IMG/VR virus record: IMGVR_UViG_3300045581_000912
Location: 1 to 30,661 of that record
Length of the DNA stretch: 30,661 bases
Reading direction: 5' to 3' (one strand)
Origin: a virus
Shown: positions 6,527-30,609 of the stretch, in pieces
Numbering within the stretch: the first letter of the stretch is position 1
How the letters are laid out: every line of letters starts with the position of its first letter
Position numbers and translations under genes: made by a program
Notes under the pieces: generated by a model
Seen by the model: the letters and a program-made list of their open reading frames with translations, nothing else
The model's database searches: none
What the model was told of the DNA's origin: nothing

Positions 6527-6544
6527 AAGGAACACTGTTATAAT
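6527..6544 (+). promoter_or_regulatory. GGAAC-N5-TATAAT promoter before DUF932 gene
   Basis: AAGGAAC at 6527-6533, a 5-base spacer, TATAAT at 6539-6544. Exactly 6 bases later is an ATG (6551) opening a 7-codon frame. Confidence 0.65.
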
Positions 6545-6550
6545 GAGGGT

Positions 6551-6574
6551 ATGAACGAAAGAAGTTCAGCTTAA
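6551..6574 (+). CDS. Possible 7-codon leader peptide (MNERSSA)
   Basis: The first ATG after the promoter encodes MNERSSA and stops 19 bases before the DUF932 start. The inverted repeat TGAAC/GTTCA (552-556 and 564-568 of the 6 kb block) spans the minigene. It could be a leader peptide or simply a structured 5' leader. Tentative. Confidence 0.25.
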   Translation: MNERSSA

Positions 6575-6593
6575 ACAATAACAAAATAAAAAA

Positions 6594-7430
6594 ATGGGAT
6601 TATTCACTAAAATTAATTCGCTAGAAGAAGTACCTCAATTCAATGTAGTAAAAGAGGAAGTCTTCGATTCACGCGGTGACCGCGTTAATGGACTCTATTC
6701 GCTGATGCGCGAGGATACTCGTGATCACCTTGGAGTATGCCGTGATAAGTATAGACCTATTCAAATGGGTGAGATGCTTGATATTATCGATACAGCAACT
6801 GCAAAGGTTGGCAGTGTTGACCATATCGGTTATACTTTTTCCCGCGGCGGAAAACGCGTTGTTCTTCAATCTCGTATGAAAGAGCAGTTCGATATTAACG
6901 GAGATAAAGTAGATGGTCTATTCTATACCGTTATTGATAACACCGGAATGAATTCCAATAAGATCATTCCTTCAACAATGCGCGTTATTTGCGATAATGC
7001 TCTGCATCTTGTTAAGAAAGAAGCTGAGCAATCAAGAACTCGTGGATTGCGCCATTCGTTTACGTTTGATGATAGCGTAGATGAAATCATCCATAAAATT
7101 GAAACTAATATTAACATCGTTAAGACGTTTAATAAAACTGCTGAGTTTTTACAGAATCATAAGTTTTCAAAAGACCAAATGATGAAACTAGTTCAGCAAA
7201 TCCTCCCAGCACCAAAGCCTAACCAAATTACAGCAAAGCTTCTTTCAAAGAGAGAAGATATTGTAAACCGTTTTGCTAACGGTATTGGTACTGAGGGCAA
7301 GACGATGTGGGATGCTTTAAATGCTGTTACGGAGTATGAATCTCGTAAGCAGTTCTCTCCTGAGAAGCTTATTAGAACTCTCAATTCTCCTACCCTCTCG
7401 AACAGAGCTCTTGAAATTCTTGTTGCATAA
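6594..7430 (+). CDS. DUF932 phage/plasmid-like protein
   Basis: 278 aa, matching the DUF932 / TIGR03299 style family: a REDTRDHLGVCRDKYRPIQ block near 39-57 and a TVIDNTGMNSNKIIPSTMR block near 116-134. The biochemical function is unknown; these proteins are frequent in phages and plasmids. Codons are richer in C- and G-ending forms than neighbouring genes, which suggests high expression. The upstream 20 bases are A-rich with no Shine-Dalgarno. It is served by the GGAAC promoter at 6527 with a longer leader than usual (about 44 bases). Confidence 0.75.
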   Translation: MGLFTKINSLEEVPQFNVVKEEVFDSRGDRVNGLYSLMREDTRDHLGVCRDKYRPIQMGEMLDIIDTATAKVGSVDHIGYTFSRGGKRVVLQSRMKEQFDINGDKVDGLFYTVIDNTGMNSNKIIPSTMRVICDNALHLVKKEAEQSRTRGLRHSFTFDDSVDEIIHKIETNINIVKTFNKTAEFLQNHKFSKDQMMKLVQQILPAPKPNQITAKLLSKREDIVNRFANGIGTEGKTMWDALNAVTEYESRKQFSPEKLIRTLNSPTLSNRALEILVA

Positions 7431-7660
7431 TGCATATATTTCGAATGATTGACATTCAAGATCCCGAAACTGGTTACGGCATATTGGTTGATATGCCGTA
7501 CCAGATAGTGGATGGGATTGAAAAAGTTATTGATATAAAAATCTATGAAATAATAAATAACGTGGTAGAAGGAATTGCACCAGTATCCTCTCCTCTGGTA
7601 AAATTAGCTTTTGCTAGTAACTTTTTGAAATTGTTAGAAATAGAACGTAATAAAGAATAA
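7430..7660 (+). CDS. Unknown 76-aa protein
   Basis: The start overlaps the stop of the DUF932 gene (TAATG), and its own stop overlaps the next start the same way, a sign of translational coupling. No motif recognised. The middle (KVIDIKIYEIINNVVEGIAP) is hydrophobic/helical. Confidence 0.55.
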   Translation: MHIFRMIDIQDPETGYGILVDMPYQIVDGIEKVIDIKIYEIINNVVEGIAPVSSPLVKLAFASNFLKLLEIERNKE

Positions 7661-7845
7661 TGTATAAAGGTGTAATAAGTAAATTTTTATTCGAACTTGA
7701 TGTTGATACTAATCGCATTATGGTGCATAGTGAAGGTGAAGGGGTAGAACCTATTGCTTTTATAAGTGTTAAGCCTAATATTACCGAAAAAGATTTTCAC
7801 TACGAGATAATGTCGTGGGTATCTGATAATAGTAATCTTAGATAA
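7660..7845 (+). CDS. Unknown 61-aa protein
   Basis: Coupled to the previous gene by TAATG. Predicted small beta-rich protein (GVISKFLFELDVDTNRIMVH). Not recognised. A GATAAATA word overlaps its stop codon at 7841-7848. Confidence 0.5.
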   Translation: MYKGVISKFLFELDVDTNRIMVHSEGEGVEPIAFISVKPNITEKDFHYEIMSWVSDNSNLR

Positions 7846-7849
7846 ATAT

Positions 7850-7865
7850 GGAACTCTAATATAAT
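7850..7865 (+). promoter_or_regulatory. GGAAC-N5-TATAAT promoter, leaderless geometry
   Basis: GGAAC 7850-7854, 5-base spacer, TATAAT 7860-7865, then TAGGT and the ATG at 7871. GATAAATA at 7841-7848 is directly upstream, so early and late elements are stacked. Confidence 0.7.
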
Positions 7866-7870
7866 TAGGT

Positions 7871-8116
7871 ATGAATTGTGGATGTGGTAATAAAGTTGAA
7901 GAAGCGCGAGCAGAACTCGGTCTTAAGATTTGTAAAACTTGTGCCTTTACTGGACCGGATATACCAAAGCCTAAAGGGCGTCAAGTATATGGTCATAAGA
8001 CTGGTTGCGAAATAGAGATACATACTGCAGAATCTTGGGAACGTAATAAAAAATATTTTATTCCTTCAGGAGCTCGTAGTTGCGTTAAAAATTTCAGTCG
8101 TAGTGTATGCGCTTAA
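7871..8116 (+). CDS. Cysteine-rich, probably zinc-binding protein
   Basis: 81 aa. Cysteines at CGCG (3-5), CKTC (21-24), residue 46 and near the C-terminus (VKNFSRSVCA) could bind zinc, with CxC and CxxC spacing. The family was not recognised. It starts 5 bases after a TATAAT box and overlaps the next gene by 10 bases. Confidence 0.5.
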   Translation: MNCGCGNKVEEARAELGLKICKTCAFTGPDIPKPKGRQVYGHKTGCEIEIHTAESWERNKKYFIPSGARSCVKNFSRSVCA

Positions 8117-10447: not shown

Positions 10448-10463
10448 GGAACACCATTATAAT
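10446..10463 (+). promoter_or_regulatory. GGAAC-N5-TATAAT promoter, leaderless geometry
   Basis: AAGGAAC 10446-10452, TATAAT 10458-10463, TAAGT, then the ATG at 10469. Confidence 0.7.
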
Positions 10464-11110: not shown

Positions 11111-11128
11111 AAGGAACATTATTATAAT
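11111..11128 (+). promoter_or_regulatory. GGAAC-N5-TATAAT promoter, leaderless geometry
   Basis: AAGGAAC 11111-11117, TATAAT 11123-11128, 6 bases, then the ATG at 11135. Confidence 0.7.
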
Positions 11129-15315: not shown

Positions 15316-15333
15316 AAGGAACTCTGATATTAT
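15316..15333 (+). promoter_or_regulatory. GGAAC-N5-TATTAT promoter for RNA array leader
   Basis: AAGGAAC 15316-15322, spacer TCTGA, TATTAT 15328-15333. No ATG follows at the usual distance, so the product is probably RNA. Confidence 0.6.
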
Positions 15334-15337
15334 ATTG

Positions 15338-15436
15338 AAACAGATAGGTTCACGACGAGGGATTACCTGAAAAGCCCAAGGGCGCACGATTAGGTGTCAT
15401 CAGAATATTTCTGAGGAGTGGTTTTTTAGGTTGATT
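15338..15436 (+). ncRNA. Possible short leader RNA
   Basis: Region between two GGAAC promoters without a coding frame. It contains TCAGAA-tat-TTCTGA (a hairpin near 15400) followed by a T6 run at 15422-15427, which could end a roughly 90-base transcript. No known family recognised. Confidence 0.3.
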
Positions 15437-15440
15437 TATT

Positions 15441-15458
15441 AAGGAACTATGTTATAAT
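15441..15458 (+). promoter_or_regulatory. GGAAC-N5-TATAAT promoter for tRNA array
   Basis: AAGGAAC 15441-15447, TATAAT 15453-15458. The leader to 15553 has no gene but contains CGACAA/TTGTCG pairing (15468-15499), so a structured RNA leader of the tRNA transcript is likely. Confidence 0.65.
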
Positions 15459-15556
15459 AAAGGAGTCGACAATAACTGATGAGTTGGTTAGTTGTCGTCG
15501 TTAATAGCTAAGGTTATTAAAAATATTGTTCTTTGAAATTTTTAACTTTTTCTAAT

Positions 15557-15632
15557 GCTGCTAGAGAGGTCAACGGGCTCCATGCCCGGTACTAAGCTGT
15601 AAGCTTACAGCTTAGTCACCTCTTTAGACGGC
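15557..15632 (+). ncRNA. Novel three-way-junction RNA
   Basis: Long basal stem: GCTGCTA plus AGAGGT (15557-15570) pairs with ACCTCT and TAG-A-CGGC (15618-15632). Two arms lie inside: CGGGC/GCCCG closing TCCAT (15574-15588), and a 26-base perfect palindrome whose half is ACTAAGCTGTAAG (15591-15616). There is no T-arm or CCA, so it is not an ordinary tRNA. Position at the head of the tRNA array recalls the small stable RNAs (species 1 and 2) of the T4 tRNA cluster. Confidence 0.5.
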
Positions 15633-15645
15633 TCAATTTTCAAAT

Positions 15646-15703: not shown

Positions 15704-16378
15704 ATGACAAAAGGTGGATATAGAGAAGGTTCAGGTAGATCAAAAAATGGTTATTATAAAGGAATATATTGTGGAAGTACTTATGAACTTTGCTGGGTGA
15801 TTTATAATATAGATCATAAAATAGAGTTTGATCGTTTCCCCGGTAAATTGCAGAAAGAAGGAGTAACATATTACCCTGATTTTTTATTATCCGACGGTAA
15901 GACGATTGTAGAAACAAAGGGATATGAAAAACAAGAGGCAGTTGATAGAAAAACAAAAATCGCCGAATCTCTTGGTTATAATGTAAGGGTGTTACGTAAA
16001 GATGATTTACAGTATACATTTGATTATGTTACAAAAACTTATAATACTAAACGATTTTATGAGCTATATGATGACTACAAACCAAAATACAATCACAAGT
16101 GTGATTACTGTCAAACTCTGTTTAAAACAGATAGAAAAATAAAGACTAAAATAAAATTTTGTAGTAGGAGTTGTGCTGGTAGATATCAACAATCTAAAAT
16201 TAAAACAGATGAAATTAGGGAAAAAATCTCTAATTCGCTGCTTGGAAAAAAAGTTAAGCCATACAAAAGAAAATATAAACAAGTATGGATTACAAATAGT
16301 GTAATAAACACTAGAATAAAAGAAGGTGATATAATCCCTGAGGGATTTAAGCAAGGAAGAACACTAATGTCCTCATAG
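15704..16378 (+). CDS. PD-(D/E)XK-type homing endonuclease in the tRNA array
   Basis: 224 aa. E28 (STYE), YYPDF with D59 and IVETKG with E70/K72 form a PD-(D/E)XK catalytic site, as in Vsr-, T7 endonuclease I- or I-Ssp6803I-like enzymes. A zinc finger follows (CDYC at 133-136, CSRSC at 153-157), then a NUMOD-like segment (REKISNSLLGKK). It lies between a truncated tRNA and an intact tRNA-Glu, and its last four codons including the stop form the 5' acceptor strand of that tRNA. This fits a selfish gene targeting a tRNA locus. Confidence 0.75.
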   Translation: MTKGGYREGSGRSKNGYYKGIYCGSTYELCWVIYNIDHKIEFDRFPGKLQKEGVTYYPDFLLSDGKTIVETKGYEKQEAVDRKTKIAESLGYNVRVLRKDDLQYTFDYVTKTYNTKRFYELYDDYKPKYNHKCDYCQTLFKTDRKIKTKIKFCSRSCAGRYQQSKIKTDEIREKISNSLLGKKVKPYKRKYKQVWITNSVINTRIKEGDIIPEGFKQGRTLMSS

Positions 16379-16445
16379 TTTATGTTGGTTAGAACACTGG
16401 CCTTTCACGTCAGAGAGCCCGGATCGTCGCCGGGTGAGGATACCA
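16369..16445 (+). tRNA. tRNA-Glu (TTC)
   Basis: Acceptor GTCCTCA/TGAGGAT, anticodon loop CTTTCAC (TTC), encoded CCA. T-loop is ATCGTCG instead of TTCRANY, although the D-loop keeps GG. The first 10 bases overlap the end of the endonuclease gene. Confidence 0.85.
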
Positions 16446-16450
16446 ATTTT

Positions 16451-16505
16451 CGTTCTTACGAACGATCTTCAGAGTTTCGGTGATCTGAAGTAAAAGAAAA
16501 CACCG
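16451..16505 (+). ncRNA. Hairpin plus H-type pseudoknot RNA
   Basis: Hairpin CGTTC-ttac-GAACG (16451-16464). Then CTTCAGA (16467-16473) pairs with TCTGAAG (16484-16490), while CGGTG in the loop (16478-16482) pairs with CACCG (16501-16505) across an A-rich linker. The same plan recurs at 19798-19865. Family unknown. Confidence 0.45.
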
Positions 16506-16517
16506 TACAATTTCAAT

Positions 16518-16591
16518 CGTGGGATAGAGTAGTGGCCACTCAAGGGTCTCATAAGCCTTTCAGGCCGGTTCGATTCCGGCTCCCGCAACCA
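16518..16591 (+). tRNA. Initiator-type tRNA-fMet (CAT)
   Basis: Acceptor CGTGGGA/TCCCGCA has the C1xA72 mismatch that marks bacterial initiator tRNA. Anticodon loop CTCATAA and the TCCCGCAACCA end closely match E. coli fMet. The T-loop is canonical (TTCGATT). The anticodon stem keeps only part of the three G-C pairs of E. coli (AGGGT/GCCTT). Confidence 0.8.
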
Positions 16592-16598
16592 ATTTAAT

Positions 16599-16661
16599 GA
16601 TGCACCATTACGAACGGAATCTTAATAAGATTTGTTGGTGAGACCCCAACATGCATCACCA
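16599..16661 (+). tRNA. Minimal tRNA-like gene, anticodon reads AAT (Ile)
   Basis: Only 63 bases with CCA. Acceptor GATGCA/TGCATC, anticodon stem GAATC/GATTT with loop TTAATAA, T-stem GTTGG/CCAAC with loop TGAGACC and no variable loop. Only about 11 bases sit where the D-arm should be, so the D-arm is missing or vestigial. Could be a decayed gene, but all remaining stems pair. Confidence 0.5.
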
Positions 16662-16667
16662 ATTTAT

Positions 16668-16741
16668 GCGCCATAAGTGTTACGTTAGCACGGGTTCCTT
16701 CCAAGTACTTAGCGTGGGTTAGACTCCCGCATGGCGCACCA
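16668..16741 (+). tRNA. tRNA-Gly (TCC)
   Basis: Acceptor GCGCCAT/ATGGCGC, anticodon loop CTTCCAA, CCA encoded. T-loop TTAGACT; D-loop TTACGTTAG lacks GG. One T-T mismatch in the anticodon stem. Confidence 0.75.
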
Positions 16742-16748
16742 ATTTAAA

Positions 16749-16826
16749 AGCCAAGTGAATGTCGATAGATAAGACGCAATCCTCATAAGGTTGAGTATGT
16801 GAGTTTAAATCTCACCTTGGCTACCA
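16749..16826 (+). tRNA. tRNA-Met (CAT), elongator or Ile2 type
   Basis: Acceptor AGCCAAG/CTTGGCT, anticodon loop CTCATAA on stem CAATC/GGTTG, CCA encoded. T-loop TTTAAAT; D-region without GG. If C34 were lysidinylated it would read AUA (Ile); sequence alone cannot decide. Confidence 0.75.
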
Positions 16827-16832
16827 ATTTAA

Positions 16833-16918
16833 GGGTAGGTATACCGTTAAGGAGACGGTTCGGACTGTAAATTCGACGCTTAAAAGCTCGCTGGGATCGT
16901 TCCCCAGACTGCCCACCA
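16833..16918 (+). tRNA. tRNA-Tyr (GTA)
   Basis: Class II tRNA with long variable arm, anticodon loop CTGTAAA, CCA encoded. T-loop ATCGTTC is non-canonical, like that of tRNA-Glu. Confidence 0.8.
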
Positions 16919-16925
16919 TTTTAAT

Positions 16926-17000
16926 GCGCTTCAAGCTTTAATAGTGAAGCTCCTGGCTTTTAACCAGATGAACACGGGGCGGTACCGTGGAGGCGCACCA
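16926..17000 (+). tRNA. tRNA-Lys (TTT)
   Basis: Acceptor GCGCTTC/GAGGCGC, anticodon loop CTTTTAA, CCA encoded. T-stem CACGG/CCGTG closes GGCGGTA instead of TTCRANY, and the D-loop has no GG. Confidence 0.75.
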
Positions 17001-17009
17001 TTTTATATA

Positions 17010-17086
17010 CGGGATGTAGCTCAGCCTGGTAGAGCGCTTGCTTTGGGAGCAAGATGTCGTCAGTTCGAATCTGGCCATCCCGACCA
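17010..17086 (+). tRNA. tRNA-Pro (TGG)
   Basis: Fully canonical cloverleaf with TTCGAAT T-loop, GG in the D-loop, anticodon loop TTTGGGA and encoded CCA. Confidence 0.9.
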
Positions 17087-17088
17087 CT

Positions 17089-17237
17089 TTTACGGTCATT
17101 GAGGGGTATTCGTCACTAAAACGTTTGTGCAGGGTAGTCAACATAAGACGCAAATGCAGTTGATAGAAATCGGGTCTTTCGAGGCGTTATCCGGTTGGGA
17201 ACACATTGCACGATATAGCGACCTGAGCCGTAAATCC
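17089..17237 (+). ncRNA. About 150-nt RNA with tRNA-like acceptor and CCA
   Basis: TTTACGG (17089-17095) pairs perfectly with CCGTAAA (17228-17234), followed by T and CCA, exactly like a tRNA acceptor end. The pairing continues inward by TCA/TGA with one bulge. The interior has TCAAC/GTTGA and GTGCA/TGCAC pairings but no T-arm, anticodon arm or tag frame I can see. Probably a stable RNA processed by the tRNA machinery; identity unknown. Confidence 0.5.
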
Positions 17238-17242
17238 ATTTT

Positions 17243-17304
17243 CAATTACTTGAGTTGCCGGCGGCTATACCTGATAAAGTAGTGTGCAGTAACTCAAGTA
17301 ATTG
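17243..17304 (+). ncRNA. Strong hairpin element
   Basis: CAATTACTTGAGTT (17243-17256) is perfectly complementary to AACTCAAGTAATTG (17291-17304), a 14-bp stem closing a 34-base loop. It lies between the acceptor-like RNA and tRNA-Asn. The stretch 17305-17365 has one further small hairpin (TCTC/GAGA) and no gene. Could be a processing signal or independent RNA. Confidence 0.45.
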
Positions 17305-17365
17305 ATTAGCTTTTCTAGTTGATATCTCAAACAAAGAGACGAAAATAAGGTATAGGGAATATAAA

Positions 17366-17636
17366 TCCGACTTAGCTCAGCGGCAGAGCAGATGACTGTT
17401 GTAATGGCAGCTTAAAGTAGAAATACTTTTTGGAAAACCAATCAAATTCGGGGAACGCTTTAAAATGCTAATCCCGAGCGAAGCCTTGAAAGAGGAACGT
17501 GTAGAGACTTGACGGTTGGTACCTTAACAGATAATGCTGAAGGTAATGAGAAAGTCCAGACCACAAACCGTAAGGATAACGAAAGTTATAGTGGTAAGTA
17601 ATCATCGGGTCCGTGGTTCGATCCCACGAGTCGGAG
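17366..17636 (+). tRNA. tRNA-Asn (GTT) split by a group I intron
   Basis: 5' exon 17366-17399 and 3' exon 17599-17636 give acceptor TCCGACT/AGTCGGA, anticodon stem GATGA/TCATC, loop CTGT+TAA with anticodon GTT, canonical T-loop TTCGATC and D-loop GG. No encoded CCA. Without removal of the 199-base insert the anticodon loop is disrupted, so splicing is needed for function. Confidence 0.85.
17400..17598 (+). other. Group I intron (tRNA type) in the anticodon loop
   Basis: 199 bases. The 5' exon end CTGT pairs with intron GCAG (17407-17410), giving the U-G wobble at the 5' splice site. The intron ends in G at 17598. Conserved core words match cyanobacterial-type tRNA-Leu introns: CAAATTCGGGGAAC (P), CTAATCCCGAGCGAAGCC (Q), GTGTAGAGACTTGACGG (R) and GAGAAAGTCCAGACC (S). 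No ORF inside; an HNH gene starts 54 bases after the tRNA ends. Confidence 0.85.
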
Positions 17637-17643
17637 CTTTTTT

Positions 17644-17689
17644 TACTGTTAATTGCACAATATTTGATTAAATAATATAGTTAACAGTA
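17644..17689. repeat. Inverted repeat at the endonuclease start
   Basis: TACTGTTAA (17644-17652) and TTAACAGTA (17681-17689) form a 9-bp stem ending one base before the ATG of the HNH gene. It follows a T7 run after tRNA-Asn. It may limit translation from tRNA-array read-through, as hairpins do for the T4 intron endonucleases. Confidence 0.5.
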
Positions 17690-18334
17690 ATGAATTACGA
17701 GCTTATATACGACAAACTTATAACAAGGGGAAAGGAAAGAACTCTAAAGGGATATAAGGAAGTTCATCATATTATTCCAAGATGTATGGGCGGCTTAGAT
17801 GAAAAAAGCAATCTTGTTGATCTCACACCAGAAGAGCATTATATAGCACATCAATTATTAGTCAAAATTTATCCTAATAACTATAAATTAATTAGAGCTG
17901 CTGCAATGATGATACCTAATAGACTAAACAACAAAATGTATGGGTGGTTAAGAAGAAAGTTTAGTAGAGCCCAATCGGTTTCACAGAGTGGTTTAAATAA
18001 TTCACAATCTGGTACTTTTTGGATTACGAACGGTATAGAAGAAAAAAAAACTGTAGATGAAATACCTTTAGGTTGGAAAAGAGGTAGAATTATTTCATAT
18101 CATACAGCTAAAGCAAAAGAAGCGAAAAAAAAGCAGATACAACAGAGTATACATCTCAAATTTTTAAACAAACAAAAAGAACTAAGCGATTTATATATTA
18201 TATACTGCAAGGAAGGATTTAATGGTGTACAACGTGCAGGTTATAAATATTCACAACCTAATCTTGTTAAATCCTTTTCTAAGTATCTTACTAACTTTAT
18301 TCCGCAAAACGGAAAGAAAAGAGGTAAAGTTTAG
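17690..18334 (+). CDS. HNH homing endonuclease
   Basis: 214 aa. The HNH core lies at 26-54: VHHIIPRCMGG (H26/H27), then NLVDLTPEEHYIAH with N41, H50 and H54. The C-terminal half is lysine-rich with a FWITNGIEEKKT motif, a DNA-binding segment also seen near the end of the endonuclease at 15704 (VWITNSVI). It is a free-standing mobile gene next to the intron-bearing tRNA-Asn and might promote its mobility in trans. Confidence 0.8.
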   Translation: MNYELIYDKLITRGKERTLKGYKEVHHIIPRCMGGLDEKSNLVDLTPEEHYIAHQLLVKIYPNNYKLIRAAAMMIPNRLNNKMYGWLRRKFSRAQSVSQSGLNNSQSGTFWITNGIEEKKTVDEIPLGWKRGRIISYHTAKAKEAKKKQIQQSIHLKFLNKQKELSDLYIIYCKEGFNGVQRAGYKYSQPNLVKSFSKYLTNFIPQNGKKRGKV

Positions 18335-18353
18335 TTCGCAAATAATTTTATAA

Positions 18354-18866: not shown

Positions 18867-18868
18867 AA

Positions 18869-18943
18869 GCACCATCAGACTGTGGGTAAGTCGGAAAGAC
18901 TCCAAATCTTTCGTCTTAGTGAGTTCGATTCTCACGTGGTGTG
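18869..18943 (+). tRNA. tRNA-Trp (CCA)
   Basis: Acceptor GCACCAT/GTGGTGT, anticodon loop CTCCAAA, T-loop TTCGATT, discriminator G, no encoded CCA; followed by a T-run. Confidence 0.85.
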
Positions 18944-18972
18944 GTTTTTCTATTTAAAAAGATATATTTTAA

Positions 18973-18980
18973 CATAAATA
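18973..18980 (+). promoter_or_regulatory. Late promoter CATAAATA
   Basis: Followed by AGATT and the ATG at 18986, exact 5-base gap inside the tRNA array. Confidence 0.65.
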
Positions 18981-18985
18981 AGATT

Positions 18986-19375
18986 ATGAGAATCAATAAG
19001 CAAGATACTGAAATTCTATCAGAGCTTTATAATAAAGTAACAACAAAAAGAGAAACACCATCTCAATTAAATGAAGCTGCACCATTTAGCGATCATCTCA
19101 AGCCACAAAAAGGGCTAAAGACATTCCTTAACGCACAAACAGAAGGTCAACCTCTTGTAAATGCAGATGGTTCACAGGTTGCTGGTACAGTATACCTTGG
19201 TCAAGGTTCATACATTTGGAATCACGATGGTGGAATTTATATTGCAAATGCAGGTCGTACACGAATTAATGCTGATGGCAGCATGCCTTGGGAGAACTAT
19301 ATGGACTACGATCCTAAAGTATTTGTGAATGCAGATGTACTTAAGAAAGCTGCAGCATATATTGATAGACTCTAA
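18986..19375 (+). CDS. Candidate capsid-targeted internal protein
   Basis: 129 aa; start fixed by the late box 5 bases upstream. Residues 1-30 are a helical leader ending SQLNE|AAP. LNE|A fits the (L/I)xE|A site cut by T4-type prohead protease gp21. The body is soluble, with an unusual NADGSQ...NADGS repeat. The leader resembles that of the 19907 gene (M-R-x-x-D-x-x-L-x-E-x-Y). Inference: packaged in the head, processed and possibly injected. The function of the body is unknown. Confidence 0.5.
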   Translation: MRINKQDTEILSELYNKVTTKRETPSQLNEAAPFSDHLKPQKGLKTFLNAQTEGQPLVNADGSQVAGTVYLGQGSYIWNHDGGIYIANAGRTRINADGSMPWENYMDYDPKVFVNADVLKKAAAYIDRL

Positions 19376-19383
19376 TTAATTTC

Positions 19384-19458
19384 CCGAGGGTCGCCTATGC
19401 AGTAAGGCCTCAGATTGTGAATCTGACTAACTTGGTGCAAATCCAAGCCCGCGGACCA
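19384..19458 (+). tRNA. tRNA-His (GTG)
   Basis: Anticodon stem TCAGA/TCTGA with loop TTGTGAA, CCA encoded. T-loop TGCAAAT and D-loop TATGCAGTAA without GG. Position -1 is C, not G. Confidence 0.75.
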
Positions 19459-19467
19459 TTTTTAGTA

Positions 19468-19543
<76 letters not shown>

Positions 19544-19550
19544 TTTTCAA

Positions 19551-19625
19551 GGAGTGTTCGTATAATGGTCATTACATCGGTCTGTCGAATCGAATACACG
19601 GGTTCAATTCCCGTACGCTCCGCCA
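19551..19625 (+). tRNA. tRNA-Asp (GTC)
   Basis: Anticodon loop CTGTCGA, T-loop TTCAATT, discriminator G, CCA encoded. Confidence 0.9.
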
Positions 19626-19630
19626 ATTTA

Positions 19631-19706
19631 CCCTGCTAAGCTAATCAAGTGAAAGCGTACCGCTGAAGACGGTGAGAGGTCAGTGCGATACTGGCAGCAG
19701 GGACCA
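19631..19706 (+). tRNA. tRNA-Phe (GAA)
   Basis: Acceptor CCCTGCT/AGCAGGG, anticodon loop CTGAAGA, CCA encoded. T-loop TGCGATA; D-loop AATCAAGTGAA has no GG. Confidence 0.8.
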
Positions 19707-19708
19707 TT

Positions 19709-19783
19709 GGGATGTTAGTAGAATGGATATAACGTAGCGCTACGAACGCTAAGAACCAGGTTCGATTCCTGGGCGTCCCACCA
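19709..19783 (+). tRNA. tRNA-Arg (ACG)
   Basis: Anticodon loop CTACGAA on stem TAGCG/CGCTA, T-loop TTCGATT, D-loop GG, CCA encoded. A34 would need inosine editing by the host. Confidence 0.88.
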
Positions 19784-19784
19784 T

Positions 19785-19876
19785 TTTAAAGAAGTTTGAT
19801 GAGTCGCGCTCATCTGATCTGGAATAAGCAGGAGTAAGTCCAGTGAGAATGTATATAAACCCTGCACAGCTTTAAA
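19785..19876 (+). ncRNA. Closed RNA with hairpin plus H-type pseudoknot
   Basis: Outer stem TTTAAAG/CTTTAAA (19785-19791, 19870-19876). Hairpin GATGAG-tcgcg-CTCATC (19798-19814). Then CTGGA (19819-19823) pairs with TCCAG (19839-19843) while GCAGG (19828-19832) pairs with CCTGC (19861-19865). Same hairpin-then-pseudoknot plan as 16451-16505. Not a tRNA. Confidence 0.5.
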
Positions 19877-19893
19877 CAAAAGAAACTATAAAG

Positions 19894-19901
19894 CATAAAT
19901 A
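19894..19901 (+). promoter_or_regulatory. Late promoter CATAAATA
   Basis: Followed by AGTAT and the ATG at 19907, exact 5-base gap. Confidence 0.65.
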
Positions 19902-19906
19902 AGTAT

Positions 19907-20236
19907 ATGAGACAAAAAGATATAAGTTTATTAGCAGAAGCATATTCAGAGGTTACTAAAGAGATAAGCTTTTCTGAGGCAGAAGAAACAATGTCACAAT
20001 CACCGCTTCTAGATGATTTGAAAAAAGCTGGTGTAGCTTATGAAAAACAAAGGAAGATTTTTGATAAAGAAGAAATGGAATTGGTAAAACGTGGTAGACT
20101 ATTTGATCGTATTAGAAATGATGTTCTCGACAATTTATCAAAAGATGAAATGCCAGATGGATTGGAAGATTATCTTAACAATATTACAATAAGAACATAT
20201 GTTTATGTTCCTTCAAACCAAATGTATACACGATAA
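19907..20236 (+). CDS. Candidate capsid-targeted internal protein
   Basis: 109 aa. N-terminal leader DISLLAEAYSEVTKEIS resembles that of the 18986 gene and ends SFSE|AEE, compatible with a T4-type prohead protease site. The remainder is charged and helical (EKQRKIFDKEEMELVKRG). Late promoter 5 bases upstream, location within the RNA array. The capsid role is inferred from leader and promoter only. Confidence 0.45.
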   Translation: MRQKDISLLAEAYSEVTKEISFSEAEETMSQSPLLDDLKKAGVAYEKQRKIFDKEEMELVKRGRLFDRIRNDVLDNLSKDEMPDGLEDYLNNITIRTYVYVPSNQMYTR

Positions 20237-20266
20237 AACAATTTTTAAAGCTCAGTACTGTTTTTA

Positions 20267-20340
20267 CGCACGTTGGCAGAGAAGTTATGCAGTGGTCTGC
20301 AAAACCGCGTAGTCCAGGGCAGTACTGGAACGTGCGTCCA
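20267..20340 (+). tRNA. tRNA-Cys (GCA)
   Basis: Acceptor CGCACGT/ACGTGCG, anticodon loop CTGCAAA, discriminator T, CCA encoded. T-stem TCCAG/CTGGA closes GGCAGTA; D-loop lacks GG. Confidence 0.78.
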
Positions 20341-20349
20341 TTTTATAAT

Positions 20350-20425
20350 GCGCGATTAGCTCAGTTGGTAGAGCAGTTGATTTACATTCAACTTGTCGGC
20401 GGTTCGAGCCCGTCATCGCGTACCA
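20350..20425 (+). tRNA. tRNA-Val (TAC)
   Basis: Canonical cloverleaf: GCGCGAT/ATCGCGT, loop TTTACAT, T-loop TTCGAGC, CCA encoded. Confidence 0.9.
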
Positions 20426-20431
20426 TTTTCA

Positions 20432-20507
20432 GGGCAAGTGACGGAATGGCATACGTGTTAGCCTTAGAAGCTAAATTTTGAGAGTTCGAGTCTCTCCTTG
20501 CCCACCA
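20432..20507 (+). tRNA. tRNA-Leu (TAG), short variable loop
   Basis: Anticodon loop CTTAGAA on stem TTAGC/GCTAA, T-loop TTCGAGT, CCA encoded. The usual long class II variable arm is reduced to about 5 bases. Confidence 0.82.
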
Positions 20508-20517
20508 TTGACTTATT

Positions 20518-20535
20518 AAGGAACTAGCTTATACT
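20518..20535 (+). promoter_or_regulatory. GGAAC-N5-TATACT promoter in the tRNA array
   Basis: AAGGAAC 20518-20524, TATACT 20530-20535, about 40 bases before tRNA-Leu (TAA). Confidence 0.65.
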
Positions 20536-20574
20536 ATTAAAGTAGAAAGAAATAAACGTTTTACTAGAAATAAA

Positions 20575-20657
20575 GCTGGTGTGGCGAAATTGGTAGTACG
20601 CTATGGTCTTAAAAACCATTGGAGAAATCCGTGAGGGTTCAAGTCCCTCCACCAGTA
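20575..20657 (+). tRNA. tRNA-Leu (TAA)
   Basis: Class II, anticodon loop CTTAAAA, acceptor GCTGGTG/CACCAGT, T-loop TTCAAGT, no encoded CCA. Ends 2 bases from the convergent endonuclease gene. Confidence 0.88.
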
Positions 20658-20658
20658 C

Positions 20659-21345
20659 TTATTTTTTAATATTATTTTTTATATAATAACAATCCTTCTT
20701 AAACTCTTTATGTCTAAACAAAGTACCTTCTTCTAAACCATACTTAGCCATTAGTTTATAAACACGTTTATAATTTCCTGATCCAGAAAGTTTAAGCTCT
20801 CTAAAAGTTCTATTTATAATAAACTGGTTACGCTTAAGACTTTCTATTAGTTGCTCATCTGTAACCTTTCGCTTACTCGTATGAGCTTTATTTTTAGAAC
20901 AGAAAGTTTCTGTTTGTGTATGACAATTAGGGCATAAGTATCTTAAATTTTCTAATCTATTATCGTTATTGATACCATTTATATGATCAAGCTGTAACTT
21001 TAAAGGCTTATCTTGCCATATATCCGTTAAACCGCAAATAGCGCATTGGTTGTGTAATAAATTCTCACGCTGTATGATAGCTCTTACACGAGAATTTGCT
21101 GTACTGCTATTAACCTTAAAAACCTCTTCTTTAGATAATTGTGTTGTACCTGTCTTAGATTGATTACCTTTGTAGCTTATTTCAAGTTTTTTATTCCAGT
21201 TCATCCACGTGGCTATTCTGACATTTAACTTATTAGCAATCTCTTGATTAGATATAGTATTGTTTGAATCTTCAATCCATTTTTGTATCTCAGGTTTAAT
21301 AGTTTTCCAATTTACATTATTTCGCTTGTATTTTTTAGTTTCCAT
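20659..21345 (-). CDS. HNH homing endonuclease
   Basis: 228 aa. N-terminal helix-turn-helix-like segment (SNQEIANKLNVRIATWM, 32-48). The HNH core contains zinc-binding CAIC (101-104) and CPNC (138-141) around LQLDHINGINNDNRLENLR (D120-H121). Layout fits phage HNH homing endonucleases. Inserted against the strand, with its 3' end abutting tRNA-Leu. TATAAATA lies exactly 5 bases before its ATG on the minus strand. Confidence 0.85.
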   Translation of the reverse strand: METKKYKRNNVNWKTIKPEIQKWIEDSNNTISNQEIANKLNVRIATWMNWNKKLEISYKGNQSKTGTTQLSKEEVFKVNSSTANSRVRAIIQRENLLHNQCAICGLTDIWQDKPLKLQLDHINGINNDNRLENLRYLCPNCHTQTETFCSKNKAHTSKRKVTDEQLIESLKRNQFIINRTFRELKLSGSGNYKRVYKLMAKYGLEEGTLFRHKEFKKDCYYIKNNIKK

Positions 21346-21350
21346 ATTAT

Positions 21351-21358
21351 TATTTATA
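21351..21358 (-). promoter_or_regulatory. Late promoter TATAAATA (minus) for HNH gene
   Basis: TATAAATA, ATAAT, ATG on the minus strand. Confidence 0.6.
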
Positions 21359-21399
21359 CAGAAAAGTTAATTTACCCAGCGTCTACCAACTTTTAAAAT

Positions 21400-21660
21400 A
21401 TGAAAGTAACAGGAAAAACTATAGTAGAGATTGAACTAGATCCTCTAGATGAGCTTAGAATTACGGTGCAGACCTTACGTAAAGCTTTAGAATGGCCGGA
21501 TGAAGCTCAGATTAACCGTGATGGTAATCTAGTTATCGATCATATGGGTTATACTTCACACTCATTTATTACAGAGGTAGAGATTATTCGCAAAGCTACT
21601 GAAGAAGACTTTGCTTTACAAAAGATTTTAGATGCACTTCGCGTGTATCGTACTAAATAA
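21400..21660 (+). CDS. Unknown 86-aa protein
   Basis: Compact protein with strands (GKTIVEIELDPLDELRITVQ) and helix (TLRKALEWPD). Not recognised. It lies between an HNH gene and tRNA-Ser; the TAA stop is almost contiguous with the tRNA. No promoter box or Shine-Dalgarno. Confidence 0.5.
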   Translation: MKVTGKTIVEIELDPLDELRITVQTLRKALEWPDEAQINRDGNLVIDHMGYTSHSFITEVEIIRKATEEDFALQKILDALRVYRTK

Positions 21661-21662
21661 AC

Positions 21663-21753
21663 GGGTAGATGGCAGAGCGGTTTATTGCGCAGATCTTGAA
21701 AATCTGAGAGGGTGATGAGCTCTCCGTGGGTTCAAATCCTACTCTACCCGCCA
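21663..21753 (+). tRNA. tRNA-Ser (TGA)
   Basis: Class II with long variable arm, anticodon loop CTTGAAA, T-loop TTCAAAT, discriminator G, CCA encoded. Confidence 0.9.
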
Positions 21754-21764
21754 AACAATTTAAA

Positions 21765-22150
21765 GGGGCTGCTCTGGTTTCGACTGTATGAGTAAGCATT
21801 AATTAGCATGTAGAGGTTGATCAGTTGGCCTCTTAAAAAGCTGATCAAAAAACACAAACGGCAAAATTAAAAACGTCGTGAACGCAATCTTCGGTCGCGG
21901 TTCCCGCAACGAGTCCTTCGTTGGTGGTGAACTTGCTCTCGCAGCTTGAGTTCTCAAACGCTCAGAGAAAAGCCTGCTCTGCTCTGAGTACAAACCAGGT
22001 AACAAACAGTATGCATTCTGTCTAATGCATTGGTGGAGGACGAAGTCAATTCGTCCCTAGGAGTGGTTCACCTTAACGAACCAACTATAAGCATGTTTGA
22101 AGGTTAATGTAAGCAAGTATAGGACACGGGTTCAATTCCCGTCAGCTCCA
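21765..22150 (+). ncRNA. ssrA: tmRNA
   Basis: 386 bases. Starts GGGGCTGCTCTGGTTTCGAC and ends GGTTCAATTCCCGTCAGCTCCA, the one-piece tmRNA tRNA-like domain. Pseudoknot-1 stem TTGATCAG/CTGATCAA precedes the tag frame. If the resume codon is ACA at 21854 (aligned with E. coli GCA in GCAAACGAC), the tag is 31 codons ending GELALAA and TGA (21947-21949). It rescues stalled ribosomes together with SmpB. CCA is not fully encoded. Confidence 0.88.
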
Positions 22151-22160
22151 CTTTTTTTAC

Positions 22161-23194: not shown

Positions 23195-23323
23195 ATGAGA
23201 GTTTTTATTGCTATACTTCGTCGTATCTTTAAACGTAAGCTCTCAATAACTGAGCGTAGAGAGATAATTAAAAAGTTGAAAATTAAAAGGAACTCTTATA
23301 GAATAGAGAAGGACGGCTTATGA
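23195..23323 (+). CDS. Unknown 42-aa basic peptide
   Basis: Short frame MRVFIAILRRIFKRKLSI..., arginine/lysine-rich with a hydrophobic start, able to form an amphipathic or membrane-binding helix. Support: late box upstream and ATGA overlap with the next gene. Contains a GGAAC-type promoter within its 3' part. Confidence 0.45.
   Translation: MRVFIAILRRIFKRKLSITERREIIKKLKIKRNSYRIEKDGL
23287..23304 (+). promoter_or_regulatory. GGAAC-N5-TAGAAT promoter inside a small gene
   Basis: AAGGAAC 23287-23293, TAGAAT 23299-23304, 15 bases before the ATG at 23320. GAAGGAC ahead of that ATG is one of the few Shine-Dalgarno-like sequences in the window. Confidence 0.5.
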
Positions 23324-23508
23324 AAACGTATCTAATTGAATATGTATATCCTAAAACCTGTACGGTTATGTCGACATACATTGAGGGTAAAGATAAAAAT
23401 GAAGCTATTAATTTTTTCACAGAAAATTTCCCCGAGGTAAATCATATTGAAAGGATTACTTGGGTACCAAATAAAATTAAAAATCTTAAAAGTTCTATAG
23501 GAAAATAA
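23320..23508 (+). CDS. Unknown 62-aa protein
   Basis: Beta-alpha-beta pattern (TYLIEYVYPKTCTVM, KDKNEAINFFTENFPEV), not recognised. One base separates it from the next gene. Confidence 0.5.
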   Translation: MKTYLIEYVYPKTCTVMSTYIEGKDKNEAINFFTENFPEVNHIERITWVPNKIKNLKSSIGK

Positions 23509-24019: not shown

Positions 24020-24035
24020 CGATCTTTATTATAAT
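24020..24035 (+). promoter_or_regulatory. Variant promoter CGATC-N5-TATAAT
   Basis: One mismatch to CGAAC. TATAAT at 24030-24035, 6 bases, then the ATG at 24042. Confidence 0.5.
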
Positions 24036-24846: not shown

Positions 24847-24862
24847 CGAACTCGGTTATAAT
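24847..24862 (+). promoter_or_regulatory. CGAAC-N5-TATAAT promoter, near-leaderless
   Basis: CGAAC 24847-24851, TATAAT 24857-24862, 8 bases, then the ATG at 24871. Confidence 0.65.
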
Positions 24863-24870: not shown

Positions 24871-25086
24871 ATGAAGACAGTTACGCTTGAGCAAAGCCTA
24901 AAAGATGCACTGACTGCAGCAGAAGCTGCTCAGCAACGTGCATCAGATCTTGATGAATATTCCTCTCTTGCTGAATATTCACTATTATCTACAGTTCTGT
25001 ATGATCTAGAAGCATACTTTGGTTCGAATAATATGAACAGCTATCAAAGAGAACGTCTGATAAGAATGGGATTTAACCCACAATAA
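24871..25086 (+). CDS. Unknown 71-aa helical protein
   Basis: Alanine-rich helices (DALTAAEAAQQRASDLDEYS). No motif recognised. Behind a CGAAC promoter. Confidence 0.5.
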   Translation: MKTVTLEQSLKDALTAAEAAQQRASDLDEYSSLAEYSLLSTVLYDLEAYFGSNNMNSYQRERLIRMGFNPQ

Positions 25087-27017: not shown

Positions 27018-27033
27018 GGAACCTCATTATACT
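27016..27033 (+). promoter_or_regulatory. GGAAC-N5-TATACT promoter, near-leaderless
   Basis: AAGGAAC 27016-27022, TATACT 27028-27033, 7 bases, then the ATG at 27041. The element overlaps the stop of the previous gene. Confidence 0.68.
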
Positions 27034-27197: not shown

Positions 27198-27215
27198 AAG
27201 GAACTATCTTATAAT
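27198..27215 (+). promoter_or_regulatory. GGAAC-N5-TATAAT promoter for RadA-like gene
   Basis: AAGGAAC 27198-27204, TATAAT 27210-27215; AGGAG follows at 27217 but 17 bases before the ATG at 27239, too far for a usual Shine-Dalgarno. Confidence 0.68.
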
Positions 27216-27238: not shown

Positions 27239-28144
27239 ATGTATCTAAGCATCGAAAAAACATCGTTTACTAAAGTATCTGACATCGTAATTCCATCAAT
27301 CTTTTATCGCAGACTTAAGTCTGGTGTAGCAGAGCTTGATAGTATGTTCGGTGAAGGTATTCTTCCAGGCTCTGCCTTTACTATTACTGCTCAAGCAGGT
27401 TGCGGTAAAACTACTCTGCTTCTTCAAGTGATGGAGGCTCTAGCTAATAACGGCTACGACGTAGGTTATGCATCTGGTGAGGAGAATCAGTATCAGCTAG
27501 CCTTTACTTGCAAACGTTTGAGCGTTTCAAACGTTCAGATCGCTAACGAAACTGATATCGACTCTCTAGCTGACGCTATGAAAGATCTCGACGTACTCGT
27601 TGTAGACTCCTTCCAAGCTTTGACTACTCGTAATAAGCTTAATCATGCTGAGCTCGAGCGCTATGCTGTAACTACTCTGCTTAAAGCAGCTAAAGAAAAC
27701 GAATGCGCGCTGTTCATAATCATGCACTTGACGAAGGATGGTAAGCTTAAAGGTAGTACGCTTGTGCCTCACGCTGTAGACGTTAATATGATGATCACGA
27801 TGGACGATGAAGGCGACGAGCAAGATCGTATCATCTCTACTTATAAGAACCGTTTCGGTCCTTGTCAGGATTATCAATCTACTATGACTTCTACCGGCTT
27901 TAAGATCTCCGGTAAGCGTGAAGTTGTTAAGGCTGAATCGAAAACTAAGCGTAAAAAGAAGTTGAACGAGGCAATTCTTAATCTTGATCCTCCTCAAATT
28001 ACTAAGAAGCTTGTTATGAATAAGTTCGGTCTTACTGCTAGCCAAGCCTATCTGGCTTTGAAAGAACTTACTGATGCTGGTAAGATCAAAAAGTTTGGTA
28101 GAGGCGAATCGAGTGTATTCAAACGTACTGCTATTAATGTCTAA
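27239..28144 (+). CDS. RadA/Sms-like RecA-fold ATPase
   Basis: 301 aa. Walker A AQAGCGKTT (51-59), SGEEN (79-83), Walker B VLVVDS (119-124) and the RadA signature KNRFG (203-207). The N-terminal zinc finger and C-terminal Lon-like domain of bacterial RadA are absent; residues about 235-301 look like a basic linker plus winged helix. RadA drives branch migration during recombination; a phage version would act in recombination-dependent replication. C/G-ending codons suggest strong expression. Could alternatively be a DnaB-like helicase core or Sak4-type annealase partner. Confidence 0.82.
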   Translation: MYLSIEKTSFTKVSDIVIPSIFYRRLKSGVAELDSMFGEGILPGSAFTITAQAGCGKTTLLLQVMEALANNGYDVGYASGEENQYQLAFTCKRLSVSNVQIANETDIDSLADAMKDLDVLVVDSFQALTTRNKLNHAELERYAVTTLLKAAKENECALFIIMHLTKDGKLKGSTLVPHAVDVNMMITMDDEGDEQDRIISTYKNRFGPCQDYQSTMTSTGFKISGKREVVKAESKTKRKKKLNEAILNLDPPQITKKLVMNKFGLTASQAYLALKELTDAGKIKKFGRGESSVFKRTAINV

Positions 28145-28679: not shown

Positions 28680-28856
28680 ATGACGAAGGAACAAATGCGT
28701 GAATGGTCGCGTTTTTTTGAAGAGCTAGATGCTTCAAGAGCTCGTGAAATTGAAATAGAGCGACAAATAATAGAAGAGGAAAGATTGAAGATTGAATCTT
28801 TAACGAACTCTCTTATTATTAGGTATAGAGATGAACGCCCTAAACGAGACAATTAA
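28680..28856 (+). CDS. Unknown 58-aa charged coiled-coil protein
   Basis: MTKEQMREWSRFFEELDAS, then a glutamate/arginine-rich helix typical of a coiled coil. Overlaps the next gene by 26 bases. Support: exact late-box spacing and coding overlap. Confidence 0.5.
   Translation: MTKEQMREWSRFFEELDASRAREIEIERQIIEEERLKIESLTNSLIIRYRDERPKRDN
28804..28819 (+). promoter_or_regulatory. CGAAC-N5-TATTAT promoter inside coding sequence
   Basis: CGAAC 28804-28808, TATTAT 28814-28819, 11 bases before the ATG at 28831. Embedded in the 3' end of the previous gene. Confidence 0.55.
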
Positions 28857-29217
28857 AGATATAATCCTTAATAGAGTTCTAGAACATCCAAATACACTAG
28901 GAGAGGTTTTGCTTGAGTATGTCTTTCCTGGTGAAGGTAGAGGCTGTTACTCAAACTTTAATGTAAGGGAGAGCTTTAAGGAATATTCTGACGGTAAAGA
29001 GTTTTTTGCTAAGCTTATACTTGGCTATCATTCAGATCTTTTTAGTGAAGAGGAAATAGAACAAGACAAAGCAAGAATTTCTTGCTACAGAGAAGCAGAA
29101 AGTGACATCGAGGTAGCGTGGCTCTGGGATGGAGATGGTCGTTTGATTTTTAAACTAGGTAAAATTTTAATTGAGAATACAGATATAAAGAAATCATATA
29201 CTTGGGATTTCATTTGA
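28831..29217 (+). CDS. Unknown 128-aa acidic protein
   Basis: Mixed alpha/beta, acidic (FSEEEIEQDKARISC), with IEVAWLWDGDGRLIFKLG near 93-110. No family recognised. Confidence 0.55.
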   Translation: MNALNETIKDIILNRVLEHPNTLGEVLLEYVFPGEGRGCYSNFNVRESFKEYSDGKEFFAKLILGYHSDLFSEEEIEQDKARISCYREAESDIEVAWLWDGDGRLIFKLGKILIENTDIKKSYTWDFI

Positions 29218-29228
29218 TAAACAAAAAC

Positions 29229-29246
29229 AAGGAACTATAATATAAT
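29229..29246 (+). promoter_or_regulatory. GGAAC-N5-TATAAT promoter
   Basis: AAGGAAC 29229-29235, TATAAT 29241-29246, 11 bases before the ATG at 29258. Confidence 0.68.
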
Positions 29247-29257
29247 AAATCAAACGT

Positions 29258-29608
29258 ATGAAAAACGATAACCAACACAACAGCGTTATTCTTCATGGCG
29301 AAGCGATGATCTTCGGATCAGCTCTTCCGGAAGATGTAACCGAAATCACTCCATCAAACAAAGAGTATCATATTATTGCGGATAGCGAAACTACTGGCAA
29401 CCATCATGTTATTGATGCTGTACCTGGTGTCCGCTTCTTCAAGAGTAAAAAGGGAACTACGTATATGCAGAACGATAAAAAGACTGCAGTGCGCTGCGTT
29501 CTCAAAGATCGTCACTCAGCTATTACCATTGCTCCAGGTACTTGGGAATTTGGAATCCAACTAGAATATGATCACTTCGCCAGCAATCTAAGAGCTGTTC
29601 GCGACTAA
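29258..29608 (+). CDS. Unknown 116-aa phage protein
   Basis: HGEAMIFGSALPEDV (13-27), GNHHVIDAVPGVRFF (47-61) and TIAPGTWEFGIQLEYDHF (90-107) suggest a beta-rich protein of a type often seen in phages; function unknown. C/G-ending codons suggest high expression. Its 3' end overlaps the convergent endonuclease by 4 bases. Confidence 0.55.
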   Translation: MKNDNQHNSVILHGEAMIFGSALPEDVTEITPSNKEYHIIADSETTGNHHVIDAVPGVRFFKSKKGTTYMQNDKKTAVRCVLKDRHSAITIAPGTWEFGIQLEYDHFASNLRAVRD

Positions 29609-30462
29609 ACTGATTGACGGGATTGACGAAAATCAATCCCGTCATATTTTGCTCCTTTAATAATATTATCTTTAGCCCATAACGGCTGTAGATTATAAAT
29701 ATTGTTTATTTTTAATAAATCATCAGCGTTAGATGCGGCGATGCTAGCTAAAGGCTTAATATGATCTATATGCCAATCACCGTAATTACACCAAGACATT
29801 CCTGGTAGAAATTTACTTTCGATGTAAAGTCTTGCTTCTTCGTAGGTGCAGCCTAAAATACGTTCAGTATTTACAGGTTTATTAACAGACATCCTTGCAA
29901 AGGCATTGGATACGAGGCGTCTTATTTTCTCTTTTGGATCCTTCTTATATTTTTCTTTTGCATTAAGACGAAGTTTTTCACGATTTTTATTAACATATTT
30001 TTTTCGCTTTACTTTTAAAATGTCTTTATTGTTAGTATAATAGTTTAAATATTTTTCCTTTATAACATCTTTATTATCGATACGGTATTTTTTATTATAT
30101 TCCCTTAACGTATCTTTATTATTAATTAACCATAATTTGTTACATAATTTTATTTTTTCATGATTTTTTTCAAAGTAAAGCTTACTTGTTTTTTTAATAG
30201 CCTCTTTATTAGAACAAAAATAATCTTTAACTTTTTTAGATCTAGCGTGCTCTGCGCAAATGCTCGAGCAATACTTATTACGATTTGTATCATATGAACT
30301 AAATGAATTACTACAATGCTGACATTTTTTAATAAACATAAGCGCATTTTTACTTTGTCTATAGGACCAAGATAATTTATTGTACTTTGTCCTCTCTTCT
30401 AGTGTAAGCTCTGAAACTTTTTTATTTAATGATTTTAAGAAAATGGTATGTGGTTTTTCCAT
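29605..30462 (-). CDS. HNH homing endonuclease with YY/NK repeats
   Basis: 285 aa from the ATG at 30462, 8 bases behind TATAAATA; an upstream ATG would add nine residues inside the promoter. N-terminal zinc finger (CQHC, CSSIC), a long repetitive helix of NKDxxxxxxxKYY-type units, then the HNH core GDWHIDHIKPL and NIYNLQPLWAKDNIIKG. Common free-standing phage HNH endonuclease. Inserted against the strand after 29258. Confidence 0.85.
   Translation of the reverse strand: MEKPHTIFLKSLNKKVSELTLEERTKYNKLSWSYRQSKNALMFIKKCQHCSNSFSSYDTNRNKYCSSICAEHARSKKVKDYFCSNKEAIKKTSKLYFEKNHEKIKLCNKLWLINNKDTLREYNKKYRIDNKDVIKEKYLNYYTNNKDILKVKRKKYVNKNREKLRLNAKEKYKKDPKEKIRRLVSNAFARMSVNKPVNTERILGCTYEEARLYIESKFLPGMSWCNYGDWHIDHIKPLASIAASNADDLLKINNIYNLQPLWAKDNIIKGAKYDGIDFRQSRQSV
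29615..29650. terminator. 12-bp hairpin between convergent genes
   Basis: TGACGGGATTGA (29615-29626) pairs perfectly with TCAATCCCGTCA (29633-29644) around CGAAAA, followed on plus by TATTTT. It would end the 29258 transcript while also encoding the last residues of the minus-strand endonuclease. Confidence 0.6.
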
Positions 30463-30470
30463 ATTATTAT

Positions 30471-30478
30471 TATTTATA
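30471..30478 (-). promoter_or_regulatory. Late promoter TATAAATA (minus) for HNH gene
   Basis: TATAAATA then 8 AT bases and the ATG at 30462 on the minus strand. Confidence 0.5.
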
Positions 30479-30526
30479 GTAAAGTGCAAAGAATACGATC
30501 TTTTTTAACAAAACATATTTAAACAT

Positions 30527-30544
30527 AAGGAACAACCTTATAAT
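30527..30544 (+). promoter_or_regulatory. GGAAC-N5-TATAAT promoter (first of two)
   Basis: AAGGAAC 30527-30533, TATAAT 30539-30544. No ATG nearby; the A-rich stretch 30545-30590 holds no gene. Confidence 0.65.
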
Positions 30545-30593
30545 AAAAAAAGCAATAACGCTATAACAAAACAACAAACAATAAAAAAAATAA

Positions 30594-30609
30594 CGAACCT
30601 TATTATAAT
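30594..30609 (+). promoter_or_regulatory. CGAAC-N5-TATAAT promoter (second), leaderless
   Basis: CGAAC 30594-30598, TATAAT 30604-30609, 6 bases, then the ATG at 30616. Confidence 0.68.

Follow-up and report, generated by a model that had tools for sequence, protein, structure and literature searches.

The IMG/VR virus record IMGVR_UViG_3300045581_000912 is a linear fragment of 30,661 bases, analysed here at its full length and referred to as the window. It carries many copies of a compact element made up of GGAAC or CGAAC, a spacer of exactly 5 bases and a TATAAT-like box, and two questions arise: what kind of promoter this is, and what reads it. In the original prediction the element was regarded as a recurrent phage promoter, depending on a phage-specific sigma factor or activator, or on a changed contact of RNA polymerase. 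We call it class A and argue, with confidence slightly better than even, that it is the promoter of a phage-specific and probably early gene class, and that it is read by a phage-adapted RNA polymerase.

The class A element in the window and its relatives

The window was scanned on both strands for [GC]GAAC-N5-TATAAT. The plus strand contained 10 exact copies, rising to 16 when a single box mismatch was tolerated, and the minus strand none, whereas 300 dinucleotide shuffles of the window gave means of 0.03 (exact) and 0.49 (one mismatch), with maxima of 1 and 3. Spacers other than 5 gave 0 to 3 matches each, one mismatch being allowed. The 15 sites of the original prediction and its CGATC variant at 24020 were all recovered where it had placed them, nearly all ahead of genes or RNA units as it had claimed: the distance from box to start of the open reading frame (ORF) is mostly 5-23 nt, and three sites (15318, 15443 and 20520) precede RNA units. 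The sites, class A unless stated, are as follows.

6529..6544, plus strand: GGAAC-ACTGT-TATAAT; the ATG 6 nt past the box opens a 7-codon ORF only, and the DUF932 gene starts at 6594
7850..7865, plus strand: GGAAC-TCTAA-TATAAT; ATG 5 nt past the box, zinc-ribbon gene 7871-8116; site kept before this gene in several relatives
10448..10463, plus strand: GGAAC-ACCAT-TATAAT; ATG at 10469, 5 nt past the box
11113..11128, plus strand: GGAAC-ATTAT-TATAAT; ATG at 11135, 6 nt past the box
15318..15333, plus strand: GGAAC-TCTGA-TATTAT; directly 3' of a terminator-like hairpin and T-run, precedes a non-coding unit
15443..15458, plus strand: GGAAC-TATGT-TATAAT; TTGA 22 nt upstream of the box, precedes a non-coding unit
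20520..20535, plus strand: GGAAC-TAGCT-TATACT; TTGAC 22 nt upstream of the box, flanked by two tRNA-Leu genes
23289..23304, plus strand: GGAAC-TCTTA-TAGAAT; ORF 23320-23508
24020..24035, plus strand: variant, CGATC-TTTAT-TATAAT; ATG at 24042, 6 nt past the box
24847..24862, plus strand: CGAAC-TCGGT-TATAAT; ORF 24871-25086
27018..27033, plus strand: GGAAC-CTCAT-TATACT; ATG 7 nt past the box
27200..27215, plus strand: GGAAC-TATCT-TATAAT; RecA/DnaB-like ATPase gene 27239-28144, with a short A-rich leader
28804..28819, plus strand: CGAAC-TCTCT-TATTAT; ORF 28831-29217
29231..29246, plus strand: GGAAC-TATAA-TATAAT; ORF 29258-29608
30529..30544, plus strand: GGAAC-AACCT-TATAAT; in tandem with the site at 30594
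30594..30609, plus strand: CGAAC-CTTAT-TATAAT; ATG 6 nt past the box, ORF leaving the contig end

The sixteenth one-mismatch match, at 2640-2655, overlaps an ORF start and is probably due to chance. The stretch 15318-15640 holds two non-coding units, each with a class A promoter of its own; class A sites with terminator-like upstream sequence resembling this stretch occur in contigs G003, G004 and G010.

The enrichment holds across the clade and not just in the window. Eight of the first ten relatives carried the motif, on a single strand in each, this being the strand of the accessory gene block; it was present in all 26 further records, most of them retrieved by motif match, and in some it ran in both directions. 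Twenty-one contigs (1.39 Mb, window included) contained 320 exact copies at spacer 5, compared with 1 to 7 at each other spacer except for 19 at spacer 0, copies that may be self-generated by sequences such as GGAACTATAATATAAT. A position table gave the clade consensus WWAA-S-GAAC-T-M-Y-R-A-TATAAT-W-A. Most lineages have G as the first motif base; G007, G008, G009 and G020 have C or T there, and G013 is mixed.

The motif is phage-specific and essentially absent from bacterial genomes. The 20-mer AASGAACTCTRATATAATWA matched at least 120 stretches in IMG/VR viral contigs, with about 1 expected by chance, whereas genomes of bacteria and archaea (84,980 species, 257 Gb) contained 19 matches to a slightly looser 20-mer, with about 15 expected, both estimates assuming even base frequencies. 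Nine of those 19 lay in a single contig of 14 kb, assigned to a Flavobacteriaceae metagenome-assembled genome (MAG) and itself a phage contig of this clade; outside it, the motif followed by ATG was found 9 times in 60 Flavobacteriaceae-family genomes and 10 times in the reversed control. No description of GGAAC/TATAAT phage promoters was found in the open-access literature.

The position of the start codon is equally distinctive. An ATG with an ORF of 30 codons or more lies 5 or 6 nt past the box in 179 of 352 unique class A copies, versus 81 of 1,941 other TATAAT sequences, and within 60 nt of the box in 288 of the 352; A-rich leaders are frequent among the remaining copies. Should the box be an ordinary -10, the mRNAs from the 5-6-nt copies would start at or next to the AUG, and judging from box position half of the class A transcripts should be leaderless. 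Shine-Dalgarno sites in these phages are at background level, with a slight excess in G010 only. Lack of such sites, together with the fixed ATG distance in half of the copies, would also suit an element acting at the RNA level or in translation initiation, not a promoter. We consider this very improbable, since the motif also stands before tRNAs and non-coding units, directly after terminators, and since the distance to the ATG varies while the 5-bp spacer is constant.

The carriers of class A are, by their gene content, a clade of T4-like myoviruses forming a large uncultured group. Phage isolates included no near relative of the window, and gave only tRNA matches and one 40-base match inside a group I intron. 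The relatives among viral contigs, mostly fragments, carry genes of T4 type (tail sheath gp18, baseplate wedge, UvsX, DnaB-type helicase, primase and terminase gp17), and the longest (185 and 154 kb) gp23, gp32, gp44, gp46/47, UvsW and gp55. One contig retrieved via a single gene, G001, has HTVC008M-like gp33, gp59 and gp32 and is without the class A motif.

The window also contains a phage tRNA array at 16369-22153, with 16 tRNAs found by ARAGORN, more Rfam matches at 16668 and 16761, a tmRNA (tag GKIKNVVNAIFGRGSRNESFVGGELALAA) and homing endonucleases. In this region a group I intron at 17390-17580 is followed by a homing endonuclease gene at 17690-18334, and similar introns occur in G003, G009 and G010. 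A tandem-repeat ORF (...cctaagaaattagagtt...) occupies 1-1247 on the minus strand and is cut off by the contig end.

Three promoter classes

Class A was found upstream of 164 of 615 accessory genes, 6 of 99 replication genes and 0 of 245 structural genes; a second class, B (TTGA-N18-TATAAT-N5/6-ATG), was upstream of 16% of replication genes, and a third, C (TAAATA adjoining ATG), upstream of 115 of 245 structural genes (47%), these proportions being approximate because regions were hand-delimited, some contigs are close kin and ORFs were simple longest-ORF calls. In G037 and G012 (L296-L313) the TTGA of class B peaks exactly at offset 22, with 15 and 8 sites, respectively, and class B sites precede gp55, gp32 and other genes. 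With T4 as the model, classes A, B and C would be early, middle and late. The leaderless geometry, the switch of the first motif base between G and C/T lineages and the two further promoter classes had been overlooked in the original prediction.

Class A was compared with established promoter types. A TTGACA-like -35 at 16-19 bp is not characteristic of it: of the 352 sites, just 21 also have a TTGA at offset 22 or 23, which argues that GAAC mostly replaces the -35 and does not supplement it. In the position table the TGn of an extended -10 is not favoured before the box, the last spacer bases being G/A and then A, and no conserved element lies 5' of WWAA-[G/Y]GAAC where a MotA box would stand, about 13 bp upstream of TATAAT. 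The claim that GGAAC, at -22 to -18, is unlike either a sigma70 -35 or the MotA box in position was borne out. A late-type box of T4, TATAAATA, is equally inappropriate as a description, class A being absent upstream of all 245 structural genes, and the TTTG / TAnnTTTG promoter of the Bacteroidota sigmaABfr does not match a TATAAT element. Host-type TAnnTTTG or TTGAC promoters were not enriched in these phages.

Candidate readers of the GAAC element

The window and the first ten relatives gave no match to Sigma70_r2. In the wider contig set this model recovered gp55 in long contigs and a full RpoD-like sigma factor in G017, G026, G027, G030 and G035. The search for a sigma gene that had been suggested thus succeeded in some relatives, where a sigma70-family factor is present, and failed in the 30.7-kb window. 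The phage protein (300-400 aa) contains Pfam regions 1.2, 2, 3 and 4, can be aligned with bacterial RpoD/SigA and is confined to two subclades among the contigs examined. When viral contigs were scanned with this family, six were returned at 62-100% identity, all of them class A-rich; 74 other returns (54-58% identity) were interpreted as rpoD genes of bacteria, on contigs of host or prophage origin. Class A copies numbered 6 to 25 per locus in the six sigma contigs, versus a total of 7 over the 776 kb that surround the host-like RpoD genes. All six showed the same arrangement: a canonical TTGAAC-N17-TATATT, then a class A site directly before the ATG, then the sigma gene.

We propose that TATAAT would be an ordinary -10 box read by region 2 of sigma in a sigma70-type holoenzyme, with transcription starting about 6 nt past the box, at or next to the A of the ATG in half of the genes. 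The [G or Y]GAAC at -22 to -18 would substitute for the usually absent -35, being bound in rigid register with the -10, within the Z-element, by a phage-adapted polymerase. The rigidity of the 5-bp spacer disfavours a flexible contact of the sigma4 type, and a phage-made reader is favoured because the motif is phage-specific and its first base switches between lineages. The likeliest adaptor would thus be of phage origin, either the RpoD-like sigma of some members, which as reader would be autoregulatory, or a small early protein docking on sigma2. Where present, the phage sigma is the best candidate.

Several observations weigh against this proposal. The -10- and -35-reading helices of the phage sigma are canonical, those of region 4.2 included; the gene was not found in several class A-rich fragments (e.g., the window, G003, G013 and G020); in G017 it has no class A site directly upstream; and profile comparison of conserved families by hhalign revealed no hidden sigma. 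Reading of class A may also be host-specific. Given these canonical helices and the lack of the sigma in many fragments, an accessory protein and the sigma are about equally likely as readers. In the full scheme, a phage sigma of RpoD type, or an accessory protein of the phage, would direct RNA polymerase to a specific sequence in the Z-region (-22 to -18) instead of a -35; dozens of leaderless early genes would then have promoters of a single block, and the specificity would switch from G to C/T between lineages. We offer it tentatively, as somewhat short of an even chance. As for the phage-specific reader of the original prediction, the behaviour of class A as a promoter class, its phage specificity and the sigma70-family gene in relatives are in its favour; a sigma factor, an activator and an altered contact are each candidates for reading GAAC.

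In a narrower form of the proposal, a phage DNA-binding activator, MotA-like or docking on sigma2 in the manner of GcrA, would bind GAAC and recruit the host polymerase, the phage sigma being unrelated. Activators that bind sigma2 are known (PMC7403470), and the rigid 5-bp register, the lineage-specific first base and the absence of the sigma from many fragments all agree with such a protein. No candidate emerged among the conserved early families (which include membrane, lipoprotein-like, metalloprotease-like and small acidic proteins and one zinc-ribbon protein with a poor model), and we regard this version as rather unlikely. The zinc-ribbon protein, encoded at 7871-8116 in the window, is a conserved 81-aa C4 protein whose gene follows a class A promoter in many of the relatives; it was set aside as reader, having no Pfam or PHROG family, no PDB relative and a poor model (predicted local distance difference test, pLDDT, 64). 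The 152-aa, 141-aa and 251-aa families were rejected on inspection as metalloprotease-like, lipoprotein-like and porin-like, respectively. A 72-aa family compared by eye with two gp33 sequences showed no convincing likeness, G010 30627-31250 matched gp55 weakly (E 0.016) and by eye resembles a nucleotide-binding enzyme, and the sigma family phrog_12780 gave no match. Neither MotA nor AsiA arose as a name among the scanned proteins, no search with models of either having been made.

A reader supplied wholly by the host was also considered: the unmodified primary sigma would recognize TATAAT, and GAAC would be contacted through region 3.0 or the beta' zipper, as in a variant extended -10. This would require no unseen factor. 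Both the box and its spacing from the start codon resemble those of sigma70 promoters, T4 expresses its accessory and tRNA genes early, and the phage sigma, too, is of RpoD type, with a canonical region 2.4. Against it, the consensus is near chance level in the 84,980 bacterial and archaeal species and in the sampled Flavobacteriaceae-family genomes, and its first base differs between related phages; we judge this explanation unlikely. A single-subunit polymerase of T7 type, with its one rigid block of about 20 bp and TATA at the start site, is extremely improbable. Class A is such a block, and CGAACTC..TATA is presumably similar, superficially, to promoters of that type; PF00940, however, had no match in 22 contigs, mostly fragments but including those of 185 and 154 kb, while the T7 control scored 1e-109, and the box-to-ATG distance suits a bacterial -10.

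A DUF1501 gene lies near the phage sigma in two phages (L334 4802-6223; L335 1762-3183), and this family is common in Planctomycetota and Verrucomicrobiota, a weak hint at the host. The case for these phyla, which adds one Akkermansiaceae MAG match resembling an assembly junction, is weak, as is that for Flavobacteriaceae, whose basis is the phage contig in a MAG (L173/L189).

Relation to known promoters

The middle promoters of T4 (MotA/AsiA) share with class A a T4-like phage, a sigma70-type TATAAT -10 and a phage-specific element in place of the -35; they differ in that the MotA box lies near -30 and in driving replication genes, whereas class A drives accessory and tRNA genes. T4 late promoters (gp55) have their counterpart in the gp55 of near-complete relatives and the TAAATA boxes before structural genes, a class separate from that of the GAAC motif. 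Promoters read by the phage sigma factors of phiEco32 and 7-11 are, like class A, well conserved, and in those phages the sigma gene is served by both host-type and phage promoters (PMC4331800), the arrangement seen as a double promoter in the six contigs. The sigma described here differs in being full-length, RpoD-like and present in some members only, and motif and copy number differ as well.

Elements located between -35 and -10 are known from sigma70 promoters. The Z-element, at -24 to -18, contacts the beta' zipper, and its sequence reading was stated to be unknown in a review (PMC4496709). GAAC falls within it, and class A does not have the TGn of the extended -10 but a strict GAAC at -22 to -18. 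In leaderless TATAAT-N6-ATG genes the Pribnow box likewise lies about 12 bp before the start codon (PMC3160421); the class A box differs in being joined to GAAC and confined to phages.

For a large group of uncultured T4-like phages, class A supplies a promoter code, and sequence alone is enough to assign their genes to three putative expression classes. Recognition of a specific sequence between -35 and -10 would, if the proposed reading is true, have a natural example here, and its reader can be tested directly with the paired G and C/T lineages and the available phage sigma.

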